Shown one piece after another: positions 8,381 to 37,189 of a stretch of DNA of 37,189 nucleotides (within the stretch, counting starts at the first letter, position 1; each line of letters starts with the position of its first letter). The position numbers and the translations under genes were made by a program. The notes under the pieces are model-generated. The model was not told the DNA's origin, searched no databases, and was given only the letters and a program-made list of their open reading frames with translations. The stretch is from a virus. The stretch spans positions 1 to 37,189 of IMG/VR virus record IMGVR_UViG_3300020205_004135; one strand, 5' to 3'.

Positions 8381-9322
8381 ATGTCAGATAATAATGATAA
8401 AAAACCAATGTCGGAGGAGGATTACCTAAAAAGACATCTAAATGACCTAGAGACAGGTAAAAAAATAGCAGATGGGGATATTCCCTTTGTTGAGCAATCT
8501 GAATCAGCTAGAACTGGTGATTTGCAATTTTTTAATATGGATATCAGAGAATTACCTTGTGGTCAATTCTATCCAACTGGTACTCTATTTATGGTTAGAC
8601 CAGCTCAAGTAAAAGAAATTCAAGCTTATTCAATGGTTGATGATAATAACTTTTATGACATCGTTGAGAAGATGAATGATATGATGCAAGCATGTGTTCG
8701 TATTAAATATCCTGATGGTAAAGTTGCATCTTATTTGGAAATTAAAGACCAGGATAGATTATTTTTAGTTTTCTTAATTAGAGAGTTGACATTTCAACAA
8801 GGTAACTCATTAGCAGTTACTGCTAAGTGTGGATGTGGTGAGGATGTTAAGATTGAGTTAAATAGAAAATCATTTGTTTTTCATGAAATTGATGAAAAAT
8901 TAGAAAAGTTTTTCTCACAGAGTTCTAAAACTTATAATTTTAAAACAGTGAATGGTAAGAGTTTCGAACTTACCCCTCCAAATATTGGATTACAAAAAGC
9001 TTTCACTGACTATATTGTTAAAGAAAATAATGAAAAAAGAACGCCGAATTTATCATTTTTGAAAATTATTCCATTTATTATGTCTGGTAGAGTTACTATC
9101 ACTTATGATGGTATTAAAGCTAAGGTTAAAGAGTTTGAGGAAATTGATGATATTTCTTTTCAGTTTTTAAATGCTGCTGTTAATAAAATGACTTTTGGTC
9201 TGAAGGAATTAAAAGGTATTTGTGAGTGTGGTGAGGAGGTCCACACCGATATGCAGTTTCCCAACGGTGCCTCAGGTATTTTCGTTATTTCAGATGCCTT
9301 TGACGCATATATTAAAGAATAA
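8381..9322 (+). CDS. Baseplate hub protein, T4 gp26-like
   Basis: 313 residues. After a charged 45-residue N-terminus comes IRELPCGQFYPTG, then a helical region, and an F-L-x-x-L-R-E-L-T segment, a layout typical of the T4 gp26 baseplate-hub family of T4-like phages. Two separate C-x-C pairs (KCGCGE near 149-151 and ICECGE near 287-289) look like the halves of one zinc ribbon. The last 29 coding bases overlap the next gene in the +1 frame. Its position between the sheath and tube genes supports a tail-assembly role. The family call is from pattern memory, so moderate. A spliced tail assembly chaperone is the main alternative. Confidence 0.65.
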   Translation: MSDNNDKKPMSEEDYLKRHLNDLETGKKIADGDIPFVEQSESARTGDLQFFNMDIRELPCGQFYPTGTLFMVRPAQVKEIQAYSMVDDNNFYDIVEKMNDMMQACVRIKYPDGKVASYLEIKDQDRLFLVFLIRELTFQQGNSLAVTAKCGCGEDVKIELNRKSFVFHEIDEKLEKFFSQSSKTYNFKTVNGKSFELTPPNIGLQKAFTDYIVKENNEKRTPNLSFLKIIPFIMSGRVTITYDGIKAKVKEFEEIDDISFQFLNAAVNKMTFGLKELKGICECGEEVHTDMQFPNGASGIFVISDAFDAYIKE

Positions 9323-9545
9323 GCTTCAACTTCAAAAACACTTTCATCTACAAGAATGGGCAATTGATAATTGGCCATTCTGGATGTTGGAAGAGAATGT
9401 TAAACTTGTTAATGAGATTATTGAAGATGAGGAATCAAATCGTAAAAAGGGTGAGGAAGATCAATCCAAAGGAATGCCTGATTATGGTGGGATGATGAAA
9501 AATGCTTCGAGTATGGGAAATAATTTCAGTATGCCGAAATTCTAA
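9294..9545 (+). CDS. Small tail-assembly protein overlapping the hub gene
   Basis: 83 residues if started at the ATG at 9294, which lies 29 bases inside the previous gene; the frame is open upstream to about 9222. The core, QLQKHFHLQEWAIDNWPFWM, then LEENVKLVNEIIEDEE, is a Trp-rich helical segment followed by an acidic tail and a Gly/Met-rich end. Position and overlap fit either the gp51-like partner of a gp26-like hub protein or the frameshifted second part of a tail assembly chaperone. No Shine-Dalgarno sequence marks 9294, so reinitiation or +1 frameshifting is possible. It ends just before a terminator pair. Confidence 0.7.
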   Translation: MPLTHILKNKLQLQKHFHLQEWAIDNWPFWMLEENVKLVNEIIEDEESNRKKGEEDQSKGMPDYGGMMKNASSMGNNFSMPKF

Positions 9546-9549
9546 TTAT

Positions 9550-9575
9550 AAACCCACTTTTAAAGTGGGTTTTTT
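9550..9575 (+). terminator. Intrinsic terminator of the hub operon
   Basis: Arms AAACCCACTTT (9550-9560) and AAAGTGGGTTT (9562-9572) followed by a T run to 9575. It starts four bases after the stop codon of the previous gene. Confidence 0.85.
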
Positions 9576-9583
9576 AGTGCATA

Positions 9584-9616
9584 AAAAAACCACCAAATTA
9601 AATTTGGTGGTTTTTT
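9584..9616. terminator. Bidirectional terminator between convergent genes
   Basis: Perfect 16-base arms (9584-9599 and 9601-9616) around a single central base, with an A run on the left and a T run on the right. It would stop both the plus-strand hub genes and the minus-strand tube gene. Confidence 0.85.
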
Positions 9617-9633
9617 GTTTAATAAACTTTTTA

Positions 9634-10254
9634 TTAATATCCAGAAACAAGTGGGGGATTGATACCAAAATTTTGGTCAATGTATTCGTCAATGAAGTAA
9701 TCATAAACGAAATCTGCAACAGTGCTCTCAATGATATTACTAGAAGACCAGTCAAGTGAATAACCATTTAATTTAGTAATTTGTACGTTTTGGAATGTTA
9801 CTCTTCTTAAAACAACACCTTTTTTATCATGTTGATTTACAATAATAGTCCCGATGATATCAGATTTGTAGTGAAGTGATCCATTTTGAGAGTTAAATAC
9901 TAAATCAAACCAAGCTTTCAGACTTGCCCATGTTTGCATTGAGCCTCCATTACTAACATTTACTTGAAAAGGAATGGATAGAGTTCCGTCTGTTTTAGTC
10001 GGAGGAGCCATAAACATTCTAGTTGAGTATTTGAATCTTTGTGATTTTGCTGAAACATCTTGTTCAGTTAAATTAAGGTCAATTTTAGTTGCGTTTTGTA
10101 GCAATAAGATAGGATCTCTACCTTGCGCTTGTAAAATTACTGGTAAGATAAAAGTAATCTCAAAAAGATTTAAGTAAACTACTTCGTGTGGTTGTGTTCC
10201 TGGTCCACCTGGTGCTCCAGAGTTTGTAACCTGTGTAAAATGTGGTAAAGCCAT
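9634..10254 (-). CDS. gp19: Tail tube protein (T4 gp19-like)
   Basis: 206 residues. The pattern is that of the T4-like tail tube family: NLFEITFILP near the N-terminus, the assembly-loop region, KGVVLRRVTFQNVQI, then LDWSSSNIIESTVADFVYD near the C-terminus. T4 gp19 is 163 residues, so this is modestly longer. Hexamers would stack inside the sheath to form the conduit for DNA. The gene is alone on the minus strand between a bidirectional terminator and a 173-base divergent promoter region shared with the gp47 gene. A tube-initiator paralogue (gp48/gp54-like) is possible but less likely given the short, compact form. Confidence 0.85.
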   Translation of the reverse strand: MALPHFTQVTNSGAPGGPGTQPHEVVYLNLFEITFILPVILQAQGRDPILLLQNATKIDLNLTEQDVSAKSQRFKYSTRMFMAPPTKTDGTLSIPFQVNVSNGGSMQTWASLKAWFDLVFNSQNGSLHYKSDIIGTIIVNQHDKKGVVLRRVTFQNVQITKLNGYSLDWSSSNIIESTVADFVYDYFIDEYIDQNFGINPPLVSGY

Positions 10255-10427
10255 TTATATTTTATTATTTTTTATTTAATTTGCAAACAAATTATGTATT
10301 ATATATTATAATCCTTTTTGTCTCTATCTTTTTAAGGATATTGATATAATGTATATATTACTAATTAAAAGCGTTTTTTTTCTAAACTATGAAAAATTAT
10401 AAAACTATAATAAATAAAGTATTTTAA
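10255..10427. promoter_or_regulatory. Divergent promoter region between tube and gp47 genes
   Basis: This 173-base, very A/T-rich gap has no open frame of note. It holds ATATATTATAAT-like tracts near 10295-10312 and GTATATATTACTAATTAAAA near 10341-10360, similar to the TTTTATATATA motif seen before other phage genes. Exact start sites cannot be fixed by eye. Confidence 0.4.
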
Positions 10428-11552
10428 ATGAGTAAAATTTACCTGGTTGGCGATACTCACATAGGATTGGGTTATCCAAACTCTGTTGATAAGTGGTCAA
10501 AAGTTCATAGACAGTATTTTGAAGATTTCCTATTACCTTTACTTCGTTCAAATGTAAAAGAAGGTGATATTATTGTCCATATGGGTGATTTATTTGATAA
10601 TAGAAATATTATTCCAATTAATCTACTTAATTATGGGATGGATATTGTTGAGGAAATGGCCAAAATAGCACCATTGCATATAATTATTGGAAATCACGAC
10701 CTTTGGTCTAAAAGTGCTAGTGAGATAAATAGTATAAGACCTTTTAGATATATCCCTAATGTTTCCGTTTATGATAAAACAACTAAGATTGAACATGATG
10801 GTGTTAAACTATTAATGATGCCTTATATTGATAATAGATTGGATCAGATCAATCATATAAACAGTAATAAAGATTGTGATTATTTATTTTGTCATTCTGA
10901 TTTAAATGGGTGTAAGATGCACTTAACATCAGTAGCTCATAAAAATTCAGATAAGATAGATATTGAAAACTTCTCTACCTTCAATAAGGTATACTCTGGT
11001 CATATTCACTTAGTTCAGAGAAATAAAAATTTCACATTTGTTGGGTCAATTTTTCAGATGGATAGAAATGATTTTGGTGACCAAAAAGGTATATTTGTAA
11101 TAGATACTGAGGATGGTAGTGAAGAGTTCATTAAAAATGATGTATCACCTGTTTTTAGGAAAATTAGAGTGACTAATGATGAGGAAATTGAAGAGTTAGA
11201 AAGTCTTAGAGGGTCAAAAGATTATATTGATATTGCTATTTCTAATAATCTATTAGTTTCTAATAGAAAATTAAGAAGAAAGTTGGAAGTAATACTAGAA
11301 AATAGTAACTTTGCTTCTGTTGAGTATATTGATGATATTACGAAAGAATTGGTTGATAGTGAATTAAACGAAGAGGTTGATATTGATGAAGAATTAATTG
11401 ATATCTCAATTAATTTAGACTATGAAGACTATGTGAAAGAGTATATCTTAAAACAAAAATATGATAGTGATAAATTCAAATCTGGTATTACTGCTGAATT
11501 TGATGAAGTTATCAAGATTTACAAAGAAAATTATAGTTCAAAAACTGATTAA
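10428..11552 (+). CDS. gp47: Recombination nuclease subunit, T4 gp47 / Mre11 / SbcD
   Basis: 374 residues with the full set of metallophosphoesterase motifs in order: GDTHIG (8-13), HMGDLFDNR (51-59), GNHD (88-91), the CHSDL histidine (156) and GHIH (191-194). This is the Mn-dependent nuclease half of the gp46/gp47 (Rad50/Mre11) complex, which processes DNA ends for recombination-dependent replication. T4 gp47 is 339 residues. The acidic C-terminal region (about 270-374) probably caps or binds the gp46 coiled coil. The gp46 partner is not in this window. A small acidic gene follows after 11 bases. A replication or recombination gene among tail genes is unusual for T4 itself but common in rearranged large phages. 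Confidence 0.95.
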   Translation: MSKIYLVGDTHIGLGYPNSVDKWSKVHRQYFEDFLLPLLRSNVKEGDIIVHMGDLFDNRNIIPINLLNYGMDIVEEMAKIAPLHIIIGNHDLWSKSASEINSIRPFRYIPNVSVYDKTTKIEHDGVKLLMMPYIDNRLDQINHINSNKDCDYLFCHSDLNGCKMHLTSVAHKNSDKIDIENFSTFNKVYSGHIHLVQRNKNFTFVGSIFQMDRNDFGDQKGIFVIDTEDGSEEFIKNDVSPVFRKIRVTNDEEIEELESLRGSKDYIDIAISNNLLVSNRKLRRKLEVILENSNFASVEYIDDITKELVDSELNEEVDIDEELIDISINLDYEDYVKEYILKQKYDSDKFKSGITAEFDEVIKIYKENYSSKTD

Positions 11553-11563
11553 AATTTATTAAA

Positions 11564-11755
11564 ATGGACCCTATTGAAATTTACGACAGATGTTTATCTG
11601 GAAAGCCTTATAGTTTAGAGTTAAAAATATATTCTGAAAACTATTTAAAAAAAGTTATTAAGGAATTGGAAGAAATTGAAGAGTATGAAAAGTGTAGAAA
11701 TTTGTTAAATTTTATTAATTTGAGATTTGACCACAAATACAATTATACTTTATGA
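11564..11755 (+). CDS. Small acidic protein with UVR-like helix
   Basis: 63 residues, not recognised. The central KELEEIEEYEKCRNLLNFI resembles the UVR/McsA-type helical hairpin pattern (L-x-x-x-E-x-E-x-Y-E-x-C-x-x-L). The end of the protein at 13766-14137 has a similar ELESEEEYEKCSQIAKKLG. It lies 11 bases after the gp47 gene, so it is probably cotranscribed, and ends with TGA shortly before a bidirectional terminator. Whether it helps the nuclease is unknown. Confidence 0.75.
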   Translation: MDPIEIYDRCLSGKPYSLELKIYSENYLKKVIKELEEIEEYEKCRNLLNFINLRFDHKYNYTL

Positions 11756-11768
11756 TTATTGAATAAAT

Positions 11769-11799
11769 AAAAAACCCACTCAATTAGAGTGGGTTTTTT
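11769..11799. terminator. Bidirectional terminator, overlaps cupin gene 3' end
   Basis: Perfect 13-base arms (11769-11781 and 11787-11799) with loop AATTA. It serves the plus-strand gp47 operon and the minus-strand operon. The minus gene's stop codon (11784-11786) lies in the loop, so its last codons form one arm of the stem. Confidence 0.85.
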
Positions 11800-12050
11800 A
11801 TTAGTTTTATTTTTAAATCTCCTGTGCCTTTTATAACTCTGTGATAAACACCCATTGGTATAAATACTTCTCCCCTTATTTGTTTAGGTAGTTCATTATC
11901 TATTTGAACCATCCAATCAGTTTCTCCAATAGATTCAATTATTCTATTTTCTCTGTCTCGATGCCAAGAATATTCACCAGAATCTGTATCTTGTTTGAAT
12001 ACTCTGATAAATTCATTATCACTTAATTTAGTTTCTTGAAATGGTAACAT
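11784..12050 (-). CDS. Small cupin-fold protein
   Basis: 88 residues. SWHRDRENR (29-36) looks like cupin motif 1 with H30, D32 and E34, and the G-x5-P-M-G-x-x-H segment ending at residue 70 matches cupin motif 2. A single-domain cupin that could bind a metal is therefore likely; the substrate is unknown. It is the last gene of the minus-strand operon, sharing one base (TAATG) with the gene before it. Unlike the four genes ahead of it in the operon it lacks the leader motif. The terminator hairpin is built into its final codons. Confidence 0.7.
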   Translation of the reverse strand: MLPFQETKLSDNEFIRVFKQDTDSGEYSWHRDRENRIIESIGETDWMVQIDNELPKQIRGEVFIPMGVYHRVIKGTGDLKIKLIKNPL

Positions 12051-12442
12051 TAGCTTATTATTTGTTTATATCGTTCTTTGAATTTTTCAATTTTACCCAA
12101 CCAATTGTCTTTTGTTTCACAATCATTTACATAATTTTCAACTCTTGGTTCAATGTATAATAGTAGTTCTCTTATCTGACCTATAAAAGCAGATAACATC
12201 TTAGGATTTTTGTATAAAAAGTTAATATCATCTAAAATTTCAGAATACTTTTTACCATTTATAAGTGGTTCTCTGAGTCTCTTCATCATAGATGATAATT
12301 CATCAGTTGCTTTTTGATCAATGCCCATCTTAGTTATCTGTGAAAATCCCATTGTGATTAACATGCCGAAATCAAACATAAAATCGTTGATAAATTTTCT
12401 GTTAGCAGATTCAAATATTTGATATTTTTTTAAATATTTCAT
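12050..12442 (-). CDS. Helical protein with capsid-targeting-like leader
   Basis: 130 residues. The start MKYLKKYQIFES is a basic/aromatic leader ending in I-F-E, which fits the (L/I)-x-E cleavage rule of the T4 prohead protease. The rest is helical and Met-rich (MLITMGFSQITKMGI, LSSMMKRL) with no enzyme motif. It is fourth in an operon of leader-bearing genes (13766, 13038, 12445, 12050), separated from its upstream neighbour by two bases. A role as an internal capsid protein is inferred from the leader and operon. Confidence 0.85.
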   Translation of the reverse strand: MKYLKKYQIFESANRKFINDFMFDFGMLITMGFSQITKMGIDQKATDELSSMMKRLREPLINGKKYSEILDDINFLYKNPKMLSAFIGQIRELLLYIEPRVENYVNDCETKDNWLGKIEKFKERYKQIIS

Positions 12443-12444
12443 AA

Positions 12445-13020
12445 TTACCAGAATCCAGGATAGGTTTTACCACCAAATAAGTGACCATATTTTGTTAGAC
12501 GACATGCGAAATACCCAGCAGTAGTTTTATCTTTTTTCATATCACAATTATGTCTAGCAGCAAATGCTTTTCTAGCCTTAGGATCACTAACCTTAGCTGT
12601 TAATCCGCCTTTAATATCACCAAAAGATATTTTTTTCACTTTACCAGTTTTAGGATTTTTAACATACACATAGTATTTTTTACCAGGTCCATTATTTCTC
12701 ATCGGGTGATTTAATTTAACTTCTTTGCCTTTATATTCAGCTTCATTTAATTCCTCAATGTATTCCATAGGTAAATCTAAAGGAACTAGTTCACCATTGA
12801 ATATTCCAAACTTACCAATATCAGTTGATTCATATAATTCTTTATCAACATCACATAGATTAACTTTACCTAAGTCAAATAGTTCTCTAGCTTCTTTGAT
12901 TACTTCATAGAAAGCCTCCGAACCTGGTCTGAATATATTTTCAGTAATAGGTTTATTATTCTCTAAATGATATTTAAGAGATTCTGATATATTATTATCT
13001 GTGAATTTTCTAATTTTCAT
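12445..13020 (-). CDS. Leader-bearing virion protein with conserved C-terminal domain
   Basis: 191 residues. The N-terminus MKIRKFTDNNISES ends in I-S-E, fitting the leader family. Residues 30-100 are a helical linker. Residues 113-191 form a compact basic domain: KKYYVYVKNPKTGKVKKISF, then SDPKARKAFAARHNCD, then TTAGYFACRLTKYG and a terminal aromatic PGFW, with C159 and C173. A domain with this K-A-F-x-A-R-H-x-C-D ... A-G-Y-x-A-C-R-L pattern recurs in predicted structural proteins of large phages. I recall it as a virion protein of unknown function and cannot confirm the family. Operon neighbours support packaging in the head. Confidence 0.85.
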   Translation of the reverse strand: MKIRKFTDNNISESLKYHLENNKPITENIFRPGSEAFYEVIKEARELFDLGKVNLCDVDKELYESTDIGKFGIFNGELVPLDLPMEYIEELNEAEYKGKEVKLNHPMRNNGPGKKYYVYVKNPKTGKVKKISFGDIKGGLTAKVSDPKARKAFAARHNCDMKKDKTTAGYFACRLTKYGHLFGGKTYPGFW

Positions 13021-13037
13021 TATTTAATTTTTCATTT

Positions 13038-13763
13038 TTATCTTTGACCTATAATTGAGCTTATAAAATCAGTTATATTCATAACTTTAGGTTGATCCAT
13101 AGGTTGCTCACCCATTTGTACACAAGAGCATTGTTCACAACATTCACATCCTAATTGACCAGTACACTCATCACAACACCCACATCCTTCCTTAGACTCT
13201 GTATTATCTACTTCACATTCACAAGGGTTAAATTCACAATCTGTACAATTTTCACAATCTTCAACATCTATATTAGACATTTCTTCTTCAGGTTCTACTT
13301 TATCAATAGAAATGGAAATTTTAAAATCCTCGAATTTTTTAATAGATTTATTTAATCCTGGTGTTGTAATCTGTATTTCCTTTTTAAGTTTCTTTTCTTC
13401 ACCTTTAGCAATCGGTTCAAATTCTGATCTGAATCCTGTTGTATCTGTATCTTCTCCCTTTTCAAAGGAATTTATATCGAATCCCAATTCAAGGTCTTTT
13501 TCTTTTTTAATTTTCTCTGCTTTAAGTGGTTTTTCCATTTTTTCCACTTTAGACTCTTTCTTTTGGAACATTCCATCCATTACTTGATACATAGCATCAA
13601 CAACTCCATAAGAATCATTTCCAAATTCACCAGAATGTTTATCAACTACTTCCATTAAATCTTTTTCAAGTAATGACCATTTGTCCTCATCACCCTCTTT
13701 TCTGTTTTGTTTTAGGACTTCATCCCATTCAAATTCTTCACTGAATCTTTTTAAACTTTTCAT
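13038..13763 (-). CDS. Leader-bearing protein with cysteine-rich metal-binding-like tail
   Basis: 241 residues in three parts. The leader MKSLKRFSEEFEWDE is followed by a charged helical region to about residue 165. Residues 170-214 form a cluster of 14 cysteines, mostly C-x-x-C, C-x-C and CC (C170, C173, C176, C181, C183, C194, C196, C197, C200, C206, C208, C209, C212, C214), set in acidic residues. The cluster is metallothionein-like in density and probably binds Zn, Fe or another metal; it does not match a ferredoxin spacing I know. The last 20 residues form a hydrophobic helix (ITDFISSIIGQR). Second gene of the leader operon, two bases after the first. Confidence 0.85.
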   Translation of the reverse strand: MKSLKRFSEEFEWDEVLKQNRKEGDEDKWSLLEKDLMEVVDKHSGEFGNDSYGVVDAMYQVMDGMFQKKESKVEKMEKPLKAEKIKKEKDLELGFDINSFEKGEDTDTTGFRSEFEPIAKGEEKKLKKEIQITTPGLNKSIKKFEDFKISISIDKVEPEEEMSNIDVEDCENCTDCEFNPCECEVDNTESKEGCGCCDECTGQLGCECCEQCSCVQMGEQPMDQPKVMNITDFISSIIGQR

Positions 13764-32519: not shown

Positions 32520-33599
32520 ATGAAAATAAAACAAAAGTTCTTAGAACTTACTAAAAAAACGTACCCACACGGTACCGAAGATCAATTATTATCATTATTA
32601 CCAAGTGGATATAAAGAGGATGGATTTGGTAATTATTTTATTCAAATAGGGAACAGTCCTTCTACTATGTTTACCTGTCATCTTGATACCGCTTCTCAAA
32701 GAGAAGAGGGTGTTAATCATGTTTTTGATGGTAAGTTTATTAAAACTGACGGTAAGACTATTTTAGGGGCCGATGATAAAGCTGGTATGACTATCTTGCT
32801 CTATATGATAGAGAAAAATGTTGAAGGTTTATACTATTTCTTTATAGGAGAAGAAAGAGGTTGTGTTGGTTCAAGACTCGCTTCTAGTAATTGGTCAAGT
32901 TTCGACTTCTCTAGTTATATCACTAAGTGTATATCATTTGATAGAAGAGGTACTAGTTCGGTTATCACAGAACAACTTTATGGAGTTTGTTGTTCTTTAG
33001 AATTTGCAAAAGAATTATCAAAAAGATTAAATGAGAAAAACTCTGAATTTAATTTTAGTCCAGACCCAACCGGTATTTATACCGACTCTGCTCAGTTTAC
33101 ATCTTTAATTCCAGAGTGTACTAATATCTCTGTTGGTTATTATAATGAACACAGTGGTAGTGAATCACAAGATATCGAATTTTTAGAAAAATTATGTAAA
33201 GTTTGTATTGAAGTTGATTGGGAAACATTACCTATCGTTAAAAATCCGGGAGAATATATTGTTGGATATGATGATGAAGATGATGAAGATTTTGGTCTAT
33301 TTGGATCTGATTATTCTGGATTCTCTCCTGATAATTTTGTCTATGTTAATCATGATGGTGAAACTAAAAAGATGATGATATCCGATGAGTATATTGAATC
33401 AGAAAAAGAAATTATAAGTAATTGGATGAAATCATCCGGAATTGACCAGGATGTATTTGATATTACTTGGGATGGGCAAATGTTATATGGTGCGTCTTTC
33501 TCAGGATCATACGATTTTATAGCCAATAGAGAAGATATAATGGGTCATGTTGAGGAATTAAGGTCTATTCCATCAGAACATCTTAAACTAATTAGTTAA
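32520..33599 (+). CDS. M28/M20-type zinc aminopeptidase-like protein
   Basis: 359 residues. The metal-site motifs of co-catalytic zinc peptidases appear in order: CHLDTA (H54, D56), GADDKAGM (D85/D86), IGEERGCVGS (E111, E112), SFDRRG (D141) and a histidine in YYNEHSG (about 211). This predicts an aminopeptidase or carboxypeptidase-type hydrolase, probably cytoplasmic as no signal peptide is seen. After about residue 240 there is an acidic linker (YDDEDDEDFGLFG) and an extra domain of roughly 100 residues that the family normally lacks. Substrate unknown; it could trim peptides or hydrolyse an amide on a small molecule. The end overlaps a small minus-strand gene by eight bases. Confidence 0.85.
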   Translation: MKIKQKFLELTKKTYPHGTEDQLLSLLPSGYKEDGFGNYFIQIGNSPSTMFTCHLDTASQREEGVNHVFDGKFIKTDGKTILGADDKAGMTILLYMIEKNVEGLYYFFIGEERGCVGSRLASSNWSSFDFSSYITKCISFDRRGTSSVITEQLYGVCCSLEFAKELSKRLNEKNSEFNFSPDPTGIYTDSAQFTSLIPECTNISVGYYNEHSGSESQDIEFLEKLCKVCIEVDWETLPIVKNPGEYIVGYDDEDDEDFGLFGSDYSGFSPDNFVYVNHDGETKKMMISDEYIESEKEIISNWMKSSGIDQDVFDITWDGQMLYGASFSGSYDFIANREDIMGHVEELRSIPSEHLKLIS

Positions 33600-33738
33600 T
33601 AGATTTTATACTAGGGTGGTTTATAACAAATAACATCTGACCAGTTGTTAATTGATTTATATCCCATCCTCTTTCTTTACAAAGCTCAGTCATGGCTTTT
33701 TCTTTAAGAAGTACTTTATATTTTTTATTCACTTTCAT
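33592..33738 (-). CDS. Small basic protein on the minus strand
   Basis: 48 residues, starting MKVNKKYKVLLKEKAM and ending in INHPSIKSIN. The composition (Lys-rich helix, then GWDINQLTTGQMLFV) looks like a real small protein rather than chance. It fills an otherwise empty gap, and its stop region TTAGTTAA overlaps the stop of the convergent peptidase gene. Function unknown. Confidence 0.55.
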   Translation of the reverse strand: MKVNKKYKVLLKEKAMTELCKERGWDINQLTTGQMLFVINHPSIKSIN

Positions 33739-33753
33739 TGTAAAAATGTTTTC

Positions 33754-33770
33754 TTTTATATATTAAAATG
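33754..33770 (+). promoter_or_regulatory. Putative phage promoter motif
   Basis: TTTTATATATTAAAATG ends 14 bases before the ATG at 33785 and shares the TTTTATATAT core of the phage motif. A host-like TATCTTTG (33773-33780) overlaps the same short region. Confidence 0.35.
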
Positions 33771-33784
33771 CTTATCTTTGCAAT

Positions 33785-34255
33785 ATGTTTGAATTGAAAG
33801 GAAAAATAGAATTTGATCCAGTTAATGTAACTAAGAAGCACAATGACCAGTCTTCTTGGAAGAAAACCGCTATGGTTAAATTTGATGATGATACCTTTGC
33901 TTACTATTCTTGGTTCTTGAAAAAAAGATTCAACTTGTTCTTAAACAAACCTTTGAGAGGGACTCACATTACTATTATCAATGATAAATGTGATGATGAA
34001 ATTTATGCAAAGGCTAGAGAAATTTTTCACGGAAAAGAAATAACTTTTAGATACGATCCAACCTTTATAAGAGCTAATGGTAAAGGTCACTGGTGGTTAA
34101 AGGTAGATTCTGAAGATTCTAAAAACATCAGAACCGCTATGGGTTTAACACCAGATCCTTACTTTGGTTTACACTTAACTATTGGATTGGCTACTCACTT
34201 ACAATTAGAACACTCTAAATATATATTGGAAGAATGTATAAGATTAAACTTATAA
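33785..34255 (+). CDS. 2H phosphoesterase-like protein
   Basis: 156 residues with two H-x-T motifs, THITII (H61, T63) and LHLTIG (H130, T132), about 70 residues apart and each in a hydrophobic strand, the signature of the 2H phosphoesterase fold. Such enzymes open 2',3'-cyclic phosphates or cleave 2'-5' or 3'-5' linkages in oligonucleotides. Phage members include the anti-CBASS protein Acb1, which degrades cyclic nucleotide signals. SWKKTAMVKF and WFLKKRFNLFL precede the first motif. The substrate here cannot be read from sequence. It precedes a small membrane protein gene by ten bases. Confidence 0.75.
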   Translation: MFELKGKIEFDPVNVTKKHNDQSSWKKTAMVKFDDDTFAYYSWFLKKRFNLFLNKPLRGTHITIINDKCDDEIYAKAREIFHGKEITFRYDPTFIRANGKGHWWLKVDSEDSKNIRTAMGLTPDPYFGLHLTIGLATHLQLEHSKYILEECIRLNL

Positions 34256-34265
34256 TAAATTAAAA

Positions 34266-34595
34266 ATGAAGAACTATAACGATATAAAAGAAGAAGAATT
34301 AGAAAAAACTAAAAAGTATTCTGATAAAATTTTAAATAGATATATTAAATATCATAAATTTTTAAGAGGTCTTTATTCTGAGTTATTCTTTTGGATAATT
34401 TCTTTAATTCCTTTTGCTATTTTTCCTTTACTTATTGGGCCAACTCTTACTATCTATACAATATATCTTGTTGTTCATTTCTTTTTTTGGTCATTATGGG
34501 GTAAAAAGAAATACCATGAAATGTGTGATGAGGATATTGAAGAAATTAATTTAGTTATTCAAGTGTTAGAAGTTATACAAAAAGAAAGAAAATGA
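34266..34595 (+). CDS. Small two-helix membrane protein
   Basis: 109 residues. A charged N-terminus is followed by two adjacent hydrophobic segments (about 38-56, LYSELFFWIISLIPFAIFPL region, and 58-78, TLTIYTIYLVVHFFFWSLW), then a charged helical C-terminus rich in Glu. Both ends are probably cytoplasmic. The stop overlaps the start of the truncated HAD gene as ATGA, showing the two were translationally coupled. Function unknown; near the 2H phosphoesterase, a role in host takeover or defence evasion is possible. Confidence 0.75.
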   Translation: MKNYNDIKEEELEKTKKYSDKILNRYIKYHKFLRGLYSELFFWIISLIPFAIFPLLIGPTLTIYTIYLVVHFFFWSLWGKKKYHEMCDEDIEEINLVIQVLEVIQKERK

Positions 34596-34663
34596 ATGTG
34601 ATTTTTACAGATATTGACGGAGACATAACGGTTGTAAATATGAGAAGTAAATCTTTTCATTAA
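34592..34663 (+). pseudogene. Truncated N-terminus of a HAD-family phosphatase
   Basis: 23 codons from an ATG overlapping the previous stop (ATGA): MNVIFTDIDGDITV, then unrelated residues to a TAA. VIFTDIDG is HAD motif I, with nucleophile and acid Asp (D7, D9) as in nucleotidases of the HAD superfamily, where a G-T/V-L normally follows. The homology ends where the first array repeat begins (34624, CATAACGG), so the repeat appears to have interrupted the gene. Too short to be active. Confidence 0.6.
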
Positions 34664-34706
34664 AAAATAGAAAAAGTAAGATTTATTTCTTATATTTGTT
34701 GTTATA
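34624..34706 (+). repeat. Array repeat R1, copy 1 (attC-like hairpin)
   Basis: 83 bases that recur at 36619-36702 with one insertion and two substitutions. The ends ATAAC/GTTAT pair, then GGTTG opposes TT as an asymmetric bulge, then about 21 pairs (including G-T wobbles) form a long inner stem closing a roughly 20-base loop. The right arm contains TATATTTG (34691-34698), a match to the Bacteroidota -7 box TAnnTTTG, so it may also act as a promoter for the following gene; a -33 TTTG is not evident. Confidence 0.7.
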
Positions 34707-34748
34707 TTTAGTAAATTTTTAAAACACAAAGGAAACATAAATTTGAAT

Positions 34749-35165
34749 ATGGAAAATTACATAAAGATTAAAGAAGGAGTTGATGATTTTTATTATGAAG
34801 AATTTAATATTTTAAAATCAGAAATTCAAAAAGATATAAAAGTTGAGATTATAAATAACTCTGAATTTGGAGACATTGGAGGTAGATTTAATTTTTTAAA
34901 ACAGATAATATATGTTAATTCGGAACAATCTAACGAAAATATGTTTTTAACACTTTTACATGAATACGGACATTTTCTAACATTCAGAGATTATATCTAT
35001 AAACATAATATATGTCCTTATGAGTATGGTAAAAATATATTAAAAAGAGAATTGGCTGCATATTATCACGGATGGAAATACATAAAATCTAATTCAATAA
35101 AAGTTTCAAAAAAAATATGGAAGGAACATCATATTAAAATATTAAAGGACTATGGTGTTTTATAA
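34749..35165 (+). CDS. Small zinc metallopeptidase-like protein (HEYGH)
   Basis: 138 residues from the ATG at 34749; an in-frame TTG at 34743 is an unlikely start. FLTLLHEYGHFLTF places a gluzincin H-E-x-x-H motif at 71-75, and RELAAYYHGWKYI (E101) about 26 residues later supplies a likely third zinc ligand, as in ImmA/IrrE-type peptidases. The N-terminal part contains a beta pair (KVEIINNSEFGDIGG, FLKQIIYVNSE). Without a DNA-binding domain it might cleave a repressor or toxin partner, but no partner is encoded beside it. It is the first cassette gene between repeats R1 and B. Confidence 0.75.
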   Translation: MENYIKIKEGVDDFYYEEFNILKSEIQKDIKVEIINNSEFGDIGGRFNFLKQIIYVNSEQSNENMFLTLLHEYGHFLTFRDYIYKHNICPYEYGKNILKRELAAYYHGWKYIKSNSIKVSKKIWKEHHIKILKDYGVL

Positions 35166-35171
35166 AATAAC

Positions 35172-35225
35172 TTATAACGTCTGATGATAAACAATCGTTT
35201 TAATGTTGTTTATCATTTGTTATAA
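35172..35225 (+). repeat. Array repeat B, attC-like hairpin
   Basis: 54 bases forming TTATAAC/GTTATAA (7 perfect pairs), a GTCTG versus TT asymmetric internal loop, then ATGATAAACAA/TTGTTTATCAT (11 perfect pairs) and an 11-base apical loop. The last 39 bases (35188-35226) are identical to 35992-36030 of repeat D. Confidence 0.75.
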
Positions 35226-35281
35226 ACTAGTACGGAAAAATAGAATAAACTTAAATTAAAAAACAAATAAAAACTTTTAAT

Positions 35282-35521
35282 ATGGATAGAATAGAAATTG
35301 CAAATAATAGTATCGAAAATTTGATTAATATTATTCAAGAACAAGAAAATGAAATTGGATAGTATAAAATTCAATTATCTAAATTGACAAAGGTTTTTAA
35401 ATTAATGTCGAGTGGTAATTTTGATGTTATTAAGTTGTCAAAAGATTTCGATTCTTGTGAAACCGAAAATGATATTGAAAGTTTATACCAACAATATATT
35501 ACAAGCGAAGAACAAAAGTAG
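35282..35521 (+). pseudogene. Small cassette gene split by an in-frame TAG
   Basis: A 79-codon frame starts with MDRIEIANNSIENLINIIQ; codon 27 is TAG (35360-35362), and the frame then continues open to a second TAG at 35519-35521 with similar helical composition (LSKLTKVFKLMSSGNFDVIK). A single nonsense change in a once intact gene explains this best, since TAG ends other genes here (27239, 32490). The downstream half could restart at the ATG at 35404 (39 residues). Function unknown. Confidence 0.55.
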
Positions 35522-35538
35522 TATTGGTTATAACGTTT

Positions 35539-35592
35539 CTCAGATATATTTAGGTTTTCTTTTTAATATATACACTAAAATAATAAACGAAG
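35539..35592 (+). repeat. Promoter/leader module, direct copy
   Basis: 54 bases beginning CTCAGATATATTTAGG and containing the phage promoter motif TTTTAATATATACACTAAAA (35561-35580) just before the ATG at 35593. The same 54-base element, inverted and slightly diverged, lies at 36530-36583, also directly upstream of a leader-coding ATG. Its left part read backwards encodes E-N-L-N-I-S-E, a piece of the leader peptide. Confidence 0.65.
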
Positions 35593-35967
35593 ATGAAAGA
35601 TAATAAACACATACAAAGTTTCAACGAACATGGAGAAAACTTGAATATATCTGATGTTAGTGATAGTTACGATTTTGAAAATTTTCTTAATAAATTCGCT
35701 GAGAATAATTTTGGATTCGACCCAGATGGAAATCCTGCATATTATGTGGATTATCATCGTGGTGTTATAGGTATGGGAACAATGGTTAATCCAAAGTTTC
35801 AACCATTTGTGGCTATGAATCTTGATAAAGACGAAGTGAAAAATTCCATGATAGAATTAGCACACGAATTGATAAATGATATAAAGGAAAATTTTAATAA
35901 AGATTATTATATAGAATTTACAATTGTAAATGATAAGAAACATGGGTTTATATTAAGAAGTCGTTAA
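35593..35967 (+). CDS. Leader-bearing cassette protein
   Basis: 124 residues. The start MKDNKHIQSFNEHGENLNIS contains the leader pattern (SFNE) and a trailing ENLNISDV segment. The mature part is a small alpha/beta domain: YDFENFLNKFAENNFGFD, GNPAYYVDYHRGVIGMGTMV, then a helix and a last sheet (YYIEFTIVNDKKHGFI). No catalytic motif. It has the promoter motif immediately upstream and sits between array repeats, so it links the leader system with the cassette region. Product fate in the virion is inferred. Confidence 0.75.
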   Translation: MKDNKHIQSFNEHGENLNISDVSDSYDFENFLNKFAENNFGFDPDGNPAYYVDYHRGVIGMGTMVNPKFQPFVAMNLDKDEVKNSMIELAHELINDIKENFNKDYYIEFTIVNDKKHGFILRSR

Positions 35968-35975
35968 GTAATTAT

Positions 35976-36029
35976 CACTAACGGATGAGTGTAAACAATC
36001 GTTTTAATGTTGTTTATCATTTGTTATAA
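35976..36029 (+). repeat. Array repeat D, attC-like hairpin
   Basis: 54 bases sharing its last 38 bases with repeat B and ending in GTTATAA. The left arm CACTAACGGATG is diverged, so the outer stem is TAAC/GTTA only, with a GGATG spacer in the same place as GTCTG of B and GGTTG of R1. The sequence after it (TATGTAAAAATAAAATTATA) is also found after R1 copy 2. Confidence 0.7.
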
Positions 36030-36054
36030 ATATGTAAAAATAAAATTATACAAT

Positions 36055-36240
36055 ATGAAAAAATACTTTATTAAACAAGAAATGATGTGTGGTAAAATAT
36101 ATCACATGATTTATGTAAGATGGTTTGGAATGTTTGAATCATTTTATGAAAGGTGGAATACTTATGAAACGGCTACATTAAGACTGAATGAATTAAATTT
36201 ATACAAATTAAAAAATATTAAATTATGGAAAATAATATGA
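36055..36240 (+). CDS. Small cassette protein, unknown
   Basis: 61 residues from the ATG at 36055 (MKKYFIKQEMMCGKIYHMIY). Basic and aromatic-rich, with a likely beta-hairpin then helix (FESFYERWNTYETATLRLNE). It is preceded by an A/T lead that is nearly the same as that before the gene at 36731, and overlaps the next gene by 16 bases, so the two share one cassette. Function unknown. Confidence 0.65.
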   Translation: MKKYFIKQEMMCGKIYHMIYVRWFGMFESFYERWNTYETATLRLNELNLYKLKNIKLWKII

Positions 36241-36440
36241 TGAAGATTGCTGAAAGAGTATATAAACTTGTAAAGCAACAAGAACTGATAACTGAGGATA
36301 CAGAATTTAATATTTTGTATCAAATAGCGGATGAATTATTGTCAGAAATGGGTGAAATAGAACAATATGAAAATGTGAAAAAAGCATTGGTAAATATGTT
36401 TATTGTAGGTAGAATGTTTCCAGACAATAAGACATCATAA
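36225..36440 (+). CDS. Small acidic helical cassette protein
   Basis: 71 residues (MENNMMKIAERVYKLVKQQE), helical and acidic, no known motif. It starts inside the previous gene; the second ATG pair (36237, 36240) offers alternative starts with no overlap. The acidic helical character next to a basic partner could mean a two-protein unit such as a toxin-antitoxin pair, but no toxin motif supports it. Confidence 0.65.
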   Translation: MENNMMKIAERVYKLVKQQELITEDTEFNILYQIADELLSEMGEIEQYENVKKALVNMFIVGRMFPDNKTS

Positions 36441-36451
36441 ATTTAATTTTA

Positions 36452-36529
36452 TTACACATAACGATACTCAGATATATTTAGGTTTTCATTGAATTGTCCG
36501 AAACTTTCTACATGTTTATTATTTTTCAT
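36452..36529 (-). pseudogene. Inverted leader-only gene fragment
   Basis: 25 codons on the minus strand: MKNNKHVESFGQFNENLNIS, then five residues and TAA. It repeats the N-terminus of the gene at 35593 (MKDNKHIQSFNEH, ENLNIS) and has the same promoter module upstream (36530-36583), but the body of the gene is absent; the frame ends in sequence belonging to the previous cassette end (CATAACG). Either a broken gene or a stand-alone leader peptide. Confidence 0.6.
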
Positions 36530-36583
36530 ATTGTTAAATTATTTTTTAGTATATATTAAAAAGAAAACCTAAATATATCTTAG
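36530..36583 (-). repeat. Promoter/leader module, inverted copy
   Basis: Minus-strand copy of the 54-base module at 35539-35592, starting CTAAGATATATTTAGG and containing TTTTTAATATATACTAAA directly before the leader fragment ATG. About 20 bases of it (36563-36583) are also the inverted partner of 36468-36488, so the leader fragment is bracketed by inverted repeats. Confidence 0.65.
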
Positions 36584-36618
36584 ACCAATGTATAAGATTC
36601 AACCTGTAATAAATTGAA

Positions 36619-36702
36619 CATAACGGTTGCAAATATGAGAAGTAAATCTTTTCATTAAAAAATTAGACAAAGTAAGATTTATTTCTTATATTTGTTGTTA
36701 TA
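36619..36702 (+). repeat. Array repeat R1, copy 2 (attC-like hairpin)
   Basis: 84 bases, about 97 percent identical to 34624-34706, with the same outer ATAAC/GTTAT stem, GGTTG/TT bulge and long inner stem, and TATATTTG in the right arm. Followed by an A/T lead and the ATG at 36731. Confidence 0.7.
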
Positions 36703-36730
36703 AGTATGTAAAATAAAAAATTATACAAAT

Positions 36731-36898
36731 ATGAAAACAATAGAAGAAAAAAGAGAAAATGAGTTCTTTAATAAATTGAAAGAGTTATCAGATAACAAAG
36801 ACCATGGAGGAATGAAATCAAGATTTAGTGTCATTTTCTCTTATGATGACATATATAAACTATATTATGAGGTAGAACGAAAATTAAAAAATCAATAA
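36731..36898 (+). CDS. Small cassette protein, unknown
   Basis: 55 residues (MKTIEEKRENEFFNKLKELS, then DNKDHGGMKSRFSVIFSYDD and a basic helix). Charged with a helix, strand, helix layout. No known motif. It lies between R1 copy 2 and the 36916 inverted repeat and has an upstream lead like that of the gene at 36055. Confidence 0.65.
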   Translation: MKTIEEKRENEFFNKLKELSDNKDHGGMKSRFSVIFSYDDIYKLYYEVERKLKNQ

Positions 36899-36915
36899 TT
36901 TTTTGTTTTATTACT

Positions 36916-37033
36916 TATAACATCGTGTATGACACGTTGCTAATACAAAACTTAAATAGAATTACAAAACTTTAAAGATATGGGAAAAGATAATTTGAAA
37001 CACGAAAAGCAATGTGTTATACACGATGTTATA
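36916..37033. repeat. 15-base perfect inverted repeat with TATAAC/GTTATA ends
   Basis: TATAACATCGTGTAT (36916-36930) is perfectly complementary to ATACACGATGTTATA (37019-37033), 88 bases apart. The outer six bases equal the ends of the other array repeats. A smaller hairpin CGTGT/ACACG lies in the left arm. The right arm falls within the coding frame that starts at 36980. Confidence 0.6.
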
Positions 37034-37189
37034 GCGAGTTTTTTGTGTGGGGTTGGGATAGAAAATGTTGATGTTGTTGATTTAGAAACAGCAAAGTATA
37101 TAAAGGAACTTGGATTTGATAAACCAACACACTGGTATTGGCAAGATAAAACATTAACATTTGTTGAAAAAGGATTGAAGCGAGTGAAA
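36980..37189 (+). CDS. Cassette protein, 3' end outside window
   Basis: 70 residues visible (MGKDNLKHEKQCVIHDVIAS, later LETAKYIKELGFDKPTHWYW), then running off the right edge. The E-L-G-F-D-x-P segment followed by aromatic residues resembles small proteins I recall from variable regions of Bacteroidota genomes; no function is known to me. The array inverted repeat falls on codons 14-18. Start chosen as the first in-frame ATG after the A/T lead. Confidence 0.6.
   Translation, partial: MGKDNLKHEKQCVIHDVIASFLCGVGIENVDVVDLETAKYIKELGFDKPTHWYWQDKTLTFVEKGLKRVK

Follow-up and report, generated by a model that had tools for sequence, protein, structure and literature searches.

The window analysed here, a stretch of viral DNA of 37,189 nucleotides, ends within an array of small genes that are read in the same direction at 34.6–37.2 kb and are set apart by hairpins, of which four are well-formed attC-like sites, one is imperfect, one is decayed and one is atypical (Table 1). 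Integrons are a bacterial device for gathering genes. It is likely that the present array is part of an integron-like cassette system owned by the phages themselves, namely large T4-like phages, probably of Bacteroidota: in relatives, a like string of genes ends in a dedicated recombinase, and phages thus appear to own a gene-swapping system. As read, the window contains at least two attC-like sites and no Phage_integrase match, and the contig ends inside the array; it holds the array only, and any recombinase would lie past the contig end, where this array presumably once had, or still has, one of the Xer type.

Table 1. Genes and hairpin sites at the right end of the window
Feature	Position	Strand	Basis or remark
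Gene A, 2H-phosphoesterase-like	33785..34255	+	PF22547, E=0.0016, under its cut-off
Gene B, conserved flank gene, 109 aa	34266..34595	+	86% identical in L113 (contig of L001)
Gene C, truncated 5′ end (MNVIFTDIDG...), broken by the array	34592..34621	+	Judged by eye against L001, where gene C is intact, MKNNYIFTDIDGVLNPHW
attC-like site 1	34624..34706	+	Scanner score 21; 20-nt arm with 18 Watson-Crick and 2 G.T pairs
Cassette gene 1, zinc-peptidase-like (M78/SprT-like, weak)	34750..35165	+	Best Pfam match E=0.0015, under cut-off
attC-like site 2, recurrent hairpin family	35173..35224	+	Core in 31 stretches of 30 viral contigs
Cassette gene 2, small ORF	35283..35522	+	In-frame TAG at 35361 (sequence)
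attC-like site 3	35529..35661	+	Score 21; start codon of next gene within loop
Cassette gene 3 (MKDNKHIQSFNEHGENLNISDV...)	35593..35967	+	Start inside site 3
attC-like site 4, site 2 family, imperfect stem	35977..36028	+	90% identical to site 2
Cassette gene 4a	36055..36240	+	Relative in L003 at 11332-11532
Cassette gene 4b	36225..36440	+	No relative among viral contigs
Decayed site 5	36457..36583	+	Left arm, then inverted copy of site 3 arm; inverted repeats I1, I5
Copy of gene A 3′ end	36569..36618	+	Repeat D3, 83% identity
attC-like site 6	36619..36702	+	96-98% copy of site 1 (repeats D4, D5); score 22
Cassette gene 6	36731..36898	+	Between sites 6 and 7
Atypical site 7	36916..37033	+	Long continuous stem without unpaired spacer; score 19 with spacer (4,4); fold
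Cassette gene 7, cut by contig end	36980..37189	+	Start inside site 7

Hairpin sites and genes of the window

The window was scanned for AAC, 4–7 unpaired nt, a stem, 1–5 unpaired nt and GTT, with a score of at least 13 as the threshold. At 34501–37189 this scanner found five sites on the plus strand and one on the minus strand, against a mean of 0.065 and a maximum of 1 in 200 dinucleotide shuffles, and in the first 33 kb one site on the plus strand and none on the minus strand; the hairpin repeats between small same-direction genes, which the first-pass annotation had pointed out, are therefore real. The plus-strand matches are sites 1, 2, 3 and 6 and the atypical site 7, and the sole minus-strand match is site 7 from the opposite side. 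Site 4, whose 11-nt arm has eight Watson-Crick pairs, one G.T pair and two others, scores under the threshold, and site 5 lacks the right GTT end. The same annotation had each gene starting 28–57 bases past a repeat, a rule that is not general because the genes after sites 3 and 7 have their start codons in the loops of these sites (ORFs 35593–35967 and from 36980 onward). An Rfam search of 33500–37189 gave three matches, none of which reached the gathering score.

Gene A, with relatives 86–87% identical in four viral contigs, borders the array locus of related phages on the left, and in L002–L004 the array follows it directly. Site 4 together with gene 4a shows 92% DNA identity over 219 nt to the arrays of these three loci; for gene 4b, a search of viral contigs gave no relative. 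The locus exists in empty and occupied states: gene A adjoins gene D in L111, L112 and L119, an array and an intact recombinase precede gene D in L118 and L121, and an array with a recombinase remnant is found in L106, L107 and L127.

Array architecture and folding polarity in relatives

In the relatives, such hairpins likewise form unidirectional arrays, one of them with 17 sites in 8 kb. The loci hold 196 unique sites of 52–146 nt, as delimited by the scanner, which requires AAC and GTT by construction. These sites show the attC-type architecture of inverted R and L arms, AAC and GTT ends and an unpaired spacer between them, the spacer being (5,2) or (5,1) in 100 of 159 sites. As to extrahelical bases, ungapped stems are enough for detection, and bulged sites would escape the scanner. 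The longest ORF lies on the sense strand in 172 of 180 cassettes and on the antisense strand in three, with none in five, a count slightly biased to sense as sense frames were allowed to start inside the site. The cassette genes, which across arrays include some DNA methyltransferases and acetyltransferases, are read toward the recombinase, the opposite of integrons, in which they point away from it.

Mismatches in the stems indicate which strand folds better. On the sense strand, G.T (217) outnumbers A.C (65), and of 159 sites 110 have more G.T, 12 have more A.C and 37 have equal numbers. The sense strand is the favoured folded strand, and not the bottom (antisense) strand as in attC sites, the classical control for polarity being one array of six uncurated sites detected at a lower threshold. 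An earlier comparison of strand stability (sense in 228 and antisense in 19 of 249) was set aside because the scanner rewarded G.T, and the unbiased count of G.T and A.C is relied on instead.

A role of the hairpins as RNA would equally predict folding of the sense strand, a point against our explanation. The hairpins would then be terminators or stabilisers between small genes, with the modules shuffled by homologous recombination of the phages at repeats; the copies of site 2 are nearly identical in 31 stretches, so that homologous exchange is possible. We nevertheless consider this account improbable, as breaks occur between hairpins of unrelated sequence, a conserved site that is not a hairpin has the same junction at the recombinase, and the linkage to the recombinase is one-sided (see below).

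An ATG within the loop, with a frame running through the right end, is present in 60 of 196 sites. TAnnTTTG, the Bacteroidota promoter motif, occurs near the site in 44 of 180 cassettes, compared with 10 on the antisense strand and with base shuffles that average 18 and reach 25 at most; supply of a promoter by the hairpin is a suggestion, given that the motif is found in only part of the cassettes. That leader peptides encoded by the hairpins would be swapped between genes, or would be capsid-targeting signals of the T4 type, was considered and dropped, since neither idea is required if a hairpin moves together with its downstream gene.

A linked Xer-type recombinase

At the 3′ end of the arrays, on the same strand, lies one family of Xer-type tyrosine recombinases. 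Across 38 recombinase loci, one of which (L094) encodes a true IntI, 126 attC-like sites are located upstream on the recombinase strand versus 5 on the opposite strand, and 11 versus 1 downstream, with near-duplicate contigs included in all of these counts. At least one upstream same-strand site is present in 30 of the 37 loci of the family, and six of the seven loci without one have less than 1 kb of upstream sequence. The IntI of L094, an outlier of the recombinase search that scores 295 bits, has no sites nearby. Same-strand sites are absent from other recombinase loci (Persicobacter, C. oryzae, Parabacteroides, Freya_1, Ingeline_1). At the Chryseobacterium sp. locus L096, one such site lies at 1547–1694 and four opposite-strand hairpins are found downstream of the recombinase, and opposite-strand sites are also seen at L095 (two) and L099 (one).

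The family differs from IntI in several respects. Four members score 102–159 bits to TIGR02249 (IntI), below its cut-off of 265, and none of 34 records exceeds that cut-off; partial matches are found in 10 of the 34 and likewise in all 14 control genomes. The model matches the family in two stretches, one ending near 205 and the other beginning near 254 of 315, and the IntI-specific insert (I2 domain) is absent: residues 177–209 of the query face 180–260 of IntI4, with about 48 residues missing. The best NCBIfam model is NF040815 for archaeal XerA, a chromosome-dimer recombinase (139–194 bits in four members; cut-off 220), and chains of archaeal Xer and XerA rank first in both sequence and fold comparisons. 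The Z scores are 23.5 for XerA, 20.4 for archaeal Xer, 19.9 for XerH, 19.2 for IntI4 and 18.6 for Cre; the query is a predicted structure (mean pLDDT 84.9, pTM 0.61) and fold alone is not decisive for membership. In a tree of 31 proteins, in which long branches are flagged, 22 phage recombinases and three IntI fall on separate branches (100/99). The putative catalytic residues R, K, H, R, H and Y are invariant in all 14 aligned recombinases.

These data bear on the inference of the first-pass annotation that the phage carries, or has captured, a cassette array that could exchange genes with a host integron. The array is indeed phage-borne and cassette-like, with breaks at hairpin ends and cassettes present or absent among relatives, but the idea of an ordinary integron fragment in common with host integrons is not supported. 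The corresponding scenario is an ordinary CALIN, in which attC cassettes were captured from an integron of the host and are moved by a host or co-infecting IntI. CALINs have been published in other phages (Qi et al., 2023; PMC9892861), and the attC-like R and L arms, the lengths of 52–146 nt and the precise G|TT breaks in some pairs would all fit. Nevertheless, this scenario is unlikely, given that the linked recombinases fall under the IntI cut-off and lack the insert, that the array is on the other side of the recombinase and its genes point at the recombinase, that the folding polarity is reversed, and that site 2 is found in 31 stretches of viral contigs versus a single contig among 84,980 species genomes.

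Around the 31 copies of site 2, there are 84 further same-strand sites versus one on the opposite strand. The occurrence of one hairpin family in many different contexts would also be in line with palindromic mobile elements of the REP or MITE-like kind, dispersed by a transposase that is not linked to them, which we deem very improbable because of this strand asymmetry and because hairpins of unrelated sequence have the same junctions.

Virus hallmark genes are present in part of the records. Of 50 records, 14 have a Gp23 capsid match, which exceeds the cut-off in 12, and these include records of 362–464 kb; the match is missing from 36, many of which are fragments. A sheath match is present in seven of the 50, two over the cut-off. 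Only two of 22 records of related or huge phages have the recombinase at E≤1e-20, and the 462-kb phage LR756500 has an array and no recombinase, both of which weigh against the phage-owned system.

Junctions of the modules

Between array and recombinase lies a conserved attI-like site, TAA|CTATTATATAT, the pattern of which is found in 35 of 37 loci. It is not a hairpin and has the same junction as the hairpins; in three pairs its right side is more than 95% identical and its left side unrelated. When relatives are compared, as the first-pass annotation had proposed, modules change exactly at hairpin ends. At the TAA|C junction, one gene end (similarity scores 0.92–1.00) is followed by three unrelated hairpins (L007/L051/L071), and further such junctions are seen in L064 with itself, L033/L076, L090/L092 and L019/window. 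In L002–L004, cassettes lie within the recombinase gene, with junctions AA|C and TAA|C (identified by eye).

The other hairpin end, G|TT, is also a break point. Of 345 pairs that share a body, nine start within 12 nt of G|TT, the remainder being little informative as the shared stretch extends into the hairpin before it or begins within the body. Breaks at G|TT with high similarity and unrelated hairpins are found in three pairs (L005/L026, L021/L055, L030/L055), and 8 of 13 pairs that share a gene end and hairpin stop 4–6 nt past G|TT. Both gene end and hairpin are kept in six high-similarity pairs, in five of which the hairpin is the recurrent site 2. TAA|C thus appears not to be the sole crossover point, since there are G|TT breaks and pairs that keep gene end and hairpin. 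A test of crossover at G|TT of R′, with the hairpin assigned to the upstream gene, showed that both hairpin ends break and that the recombinase-side junction is TAA|C.

Proposed mechanism

Under the phage-owned cassette system, the sense strand of a site would fold and the recombinase would cut the 5′ R-arm at TAA|C, which would be the main point of recombination. The cassette would consist of a hairpin and its downstream gene and would be joined to the attI-like site beside the recombinase, so that the gene would be backwards compared with a classical integron. The hairpin may give its own downstream gene upstream sequence and, in some cassettes, a start codon, and recombination of hairpin with hairpin, via either end, may shuffle the modules further. 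The Xer-type recombinase is the putative enzyme of these exchanges, and single strands are its putative substrate.

A broader proposition appears to us evenly balanced, namely that large phages carry their own complete cassette-capturing system, consisting of sense-strand hairpins and an Xer-type recombinase that lacks the I2 domain. Such a system would represent the integron principle in a second version, a mirror image of the first, and might be a living intermediate between Xer recombination and integrons. Phage ownership would explain the continual swapping of small accessory genes by large phages, and the origin of hairpin recombination from Xer enzymes would become testable, because the I2 domain appears to be dispensable in the phage system.

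Comparison with known systems

The phage cases found in print are integrons or integron pieces (PMC9892861); the literature surveyed, which included few subscription papers and no bioRxiv, describes phage CALINs, and no recognisable phage array of the present build was found in it. The arrays resemble integrons and CALINs in the hairpins with AAC...GTT arms, the unidirectional series of small genes, most of them unknown and some for methyltransferases, the precise exchange of modules and the attI-like site beside a tyrosine recombinase. Unlike in integrons, the recombinase scores under the IntI cut-off and lacks the IntI-specific insert, the array is upstream of the recombinase with its genes pointing at it, the sense strand folds, the recombinase-side junction is TAA|C and, in the proposed unit, the hairpin is upstream of its own gene. 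The resemblance to archaeal XerA extends from the best-matching model, NF040815, to the fold comparison, which XerA leads.

As in the reverse integrons of Treponema, recombinase and cassette genes are on one strand; however, in Treponema intI is transcribed toward attI with the array after it, whereas in the phages the array comes before the recombinase (PMC3607928, PMC4909258). Another parallel is the Xer recombination of CTX-phi hairpin DNA, which employs an Xer-type enzyme without an I2 domain and a stem that needs no extrahelical bases, the I2 domain being counted there as an adaptation to single-stranded sites; CTX-phi uses the XerCD of its host, whereas in the present loci the recombinase is encoded by the phage itself, next to the cassette array (PMC4792948).

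The array and its hairpins

As the first-pass annotation had recognized from the sequence, the right end of the 37,189-base window carries small unidirectional genes separated by hairpins with AAC at the left end and GTT at the right. The scanner recovers five of these attC-like sites on the + strand (four well formed and the atypical site 7) compared with a mean of 0.065 and a maximum of 1 in 200 shuffles. The contig stops within the array, and the window carries no recombinase. In gene 3 the start ATG lies within the hairpin loop and the frame crosses the right end, an arrangement seen at 60 of 196 sites. The second cassette gene is divided by an in-frame TAG. Site 5 is chimeric: its left arm runs into an 85-nt inverted copy of the arm and loop of site 3, and next comes a duplicate of the gene A 3′ end, which would fit an inversion meeting a second insertion.

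Coordinates of features in the window and in related loci
Feature	Location	Positions	Remarks
HNH/homing endonuclease gene, immediately 3′ of the tail sheath gene	window	6561-8300	
Gene A	window	33785..34255 (+)	2H-phosphoesterase-like
Gene B	window	34266..34595 (+)	
Array	window	34.6-37.2 kb	
Site 2	window	35173-35224	recurrent hairpin family
In-frame TAG	window	35361-35363	frame open until 35522
Site 5	window	36457-36618	chimeric
Inverted copy of the site 3 arm and loop	window	36500-36584	within site 5
Site 7	window	36916-37033	atypical
Recombinase block	L121	5740-8040	within gene D (by eye)
Genuine IntI	L094, IMG/VR contig	10001-10720	TIGR02249, 295 bits
Four AAC/GTT-ended hairpins	L096, Chryseobacterium plasmid	8923-13544	strand opposite to recombinase

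The core of site 2 is present in 31 stretches from 30 viral contigs, with many different flanks; a few stretches represent one and the same cassette in separate contigs. A further same-strand site lies within 3 kb in 21 of the 31 stretches; summed over all copies, 84 neighboring sites are on the same strand and 1 on the opposite strand, and one locus has 17 sites within 8 kb (shuffle mean, 0.34). When a slightly longer pattern, fitted by the 31 viral sequences, was run against 84,980 species genomes, a single contig matched, and no recombinase was found in the 4.5 kb examined of that contig. Because 31 viral stretches stand against this single contig, the hairpin is essentially viral within the viral contigs and species genomes searched.

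The associated recombinase

The first sign of a linked tyrosine recombinase, roughly 265 aa long, was a partial match to the integron integrase (IntI) in 10 of 34 contigs; since 14 of 14 control genomes show the same match, any tyrosine recombinase gives one. Among 38 recombinase loci collected without regard to arrays and including near-duplicate contigs, one (L094) encodes a true IntI, and the scanner found no attC-like sites in its contig. Of the other 37, 30 possess an upstream site on the recombinase strand, and six of the remaining seven have less than 1 kb of upstream sequence. Near-duplicates included, upstream sites number 126 on the same strand vs 5 on the other, and downstream sites 11 vs 1.

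All 14 aligned recombinases have identical putative catalytic residues. Four family members score under the cut-offs of the IntI, XerC, XerD and XerA models, with XerA the best; the predicted fold is that of a tyrosine recombinase, nearest to XerA. The recombinase of L057 lacks about 48 residues at the position of the IntI4 insert, and the family is separate from IntI in the tree. The recombinases of L076 and L079 have N-terminal domains far from that of L057 and similar catalytic domains, a pattern that suggests domain exchange. The near-identical Polaribacter phages Freya_10, Freya_1 and Freya_5 vary, by as much as 4.9 kb, in the small genes immediately 5′ of an integrase that shares 37% identity with the phage recombinase, and their deletion junctions share a short sequence.

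Between the final cassette and the recombinase lies an attI-like site, TAA/CTATTATATAT or a near variant (slashes mark breaks), with a pattern match in 35 of 37 loci; in L071 and L091 the pattern picked an adjacent AAC; a variant was seen by eye in L070 and none in L093. Mean identity over 557 pairs is 0.355 to the left of TAA vs 0.551 to the right, and three locus pairs are over 95% identical to the right and unrelated to the left. On the complementary strand the site reads ...ATATATAATAG/TTA, which we take to resemble the attI1 core.

Module breakpoints and strand polarity

In a pairwise comparison of 249 sites, the right gene alone is common to 24 pairs, the left gene alone to 18, site and right gene to 16, left gene and site to 8, and all three to 3. 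At high similarity, seven pairs have one gene end followed by unrelated hairpins, breaking at TAA/C, the left end of the hairpin (L007/L051, L007/L071, L051/L071, L064 with itself, L033/L076, L090/L092 and L019/window). In four pairs unrelated hairpins precede one common downstream gene; three break at G/TT, the right end (L005/L026, L021/L055 and L030/L055), and in L052/L055 the common part starts later. Six high-similarity pairs, five of them with site 2, retain gene end and hairpin and differ in the next gene, and three retain site and next gene. In a separate comparison, 9 of 345 body-sharing pairs start within 12 nt of G/TT; where gene end and hairpin are common, similarity stops 4–6 nt past G/TT in 8 of 13 pairs. 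The first-pass annotation proposed looking for breaks at G/TTATA; among the high-similarity pairs, three break at G/TT and seven at TAA/C. Because modules break at both positions, crossovers appear to use either hairpin end.

With orientation set by the recombinase and Watson-Crick pairs alone rewarded in the scan, the sense strands of 159 sites contain 217 G.T vs 65 A.C mismatches; G.T prevails in 110 sites, A.C in 12, and 37 are balanced. The unpaired spacer is 3 or 4 nt longer on the 5′ side in 125 of the 159. In the classical array of Shewanella phage M16-3, the gene strand shows the opposite bias (A.C 10 vs G.T 3), this control being one array of six uncurated sites at a lower threshold. 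According to PMC4792948, integrons use the bottom strand, and cassettes inserted by recombination of the top strand lie in the orientation opposite to the promoter; the phage arrays match this top-strand case. Folding of the sense strand could reflect an RNA function, but as the whole explanation this is countered by the junctions and the attI-like site. We infer the model of strand and crossover for the phage arrays.

Empty and occupied loci

The proposed comparison of relatives for presence or absence of cassettes was borne out at one locus: gene A abuts gene D, the right flank in relatives, in L111, L112 and L119, and an array with an intact recombinase terminates at gene D in L118 and L121. 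In L121 the recombinase block lies, by eye, inside gene D, the first part of which is duplicated, giving an intact gene D start after the recombinase. Genes including B and C lie between A and D in L113 (contig of L001). In L106, L107 and L127 (contigs of L003, L004 and L002), the final 19 recombinase codons come after the array, and the junctions within the recombinase gene are, by eye, at AA/C and TAA/C. In the window, gene C is broken after about 30 bases, where the array starts (...CATAA/CGG); the simplest prediction is that a recombinase, whole or as a remnant, follows to the right and that gene D comes after it. The recombinase is patchy: of 22 records from relatives or huge phages, 2 contain it at E<=1e-20. 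The 462 kb phage LR756500.1 lacks the recombinase and has an array of roughly eight sites that terminates at an attI-like TAACATAAATATATA, degenerate by eye.

Cargo and viral context

The longest cassette ORF is sense in 172 of 180 cases, antisense in 3 and lacking in 5, with a slight bias toward sense, as sense ORFs were permitted to begin inside the site. The scans covered 120 of the 171 distinct cassette ORFs. Matches were to 15 Pfam families, with clear cases in three DNA methyltransferase families, each represented by a single member, and in acetyltransferases, represented by two; PHROGs yielded 49 families, of which the 25 listed are methyltransferases, acetyltransferases or unknown, and the PADLOC matches listed are methyltransferases.

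Among 50 records that carry arrays or recombinases or are related to the window, many of the non-matching ones being short fragments, 14 match the T4 Gp23 capsid (12 over the cut-off) and seven the sheath (two over the cut-off); records as long as 362, 462 and 464 kb are among the Gp23 matches. The contractile-tail sheath gene of the window is nearest to those of 462–735 kb metagenomic phages, with more distant similarity to sheath genes from phages of Prevotella, Tenacibaculum and Flavobacterium; hosts are inferred from related phages only.

Relation to known systems

Our literature search found no description of a phage array running into a Xer-type recombinase. By the features tested, the phage system is best described as probably integron-like in its working yet outside the IntI family. 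The initially perceived resemblance to an integron thus extends to the attC-like sites, module exchange and attI-like site, but not to the recombinase, which is below the IntI cut-off and without the insert. Phage CALINs (attC arrays without a nearby integrase) whose attC sites are recombined by IntI1 have been published (PMC9892861). In CTX-phi, the host XerCD acts on a hairpin (PMC4792948). In the reverse integrons of Treponema the array follows attI (PMC3607928, PMC4909258), whereas the phage array runs into the recombinase.
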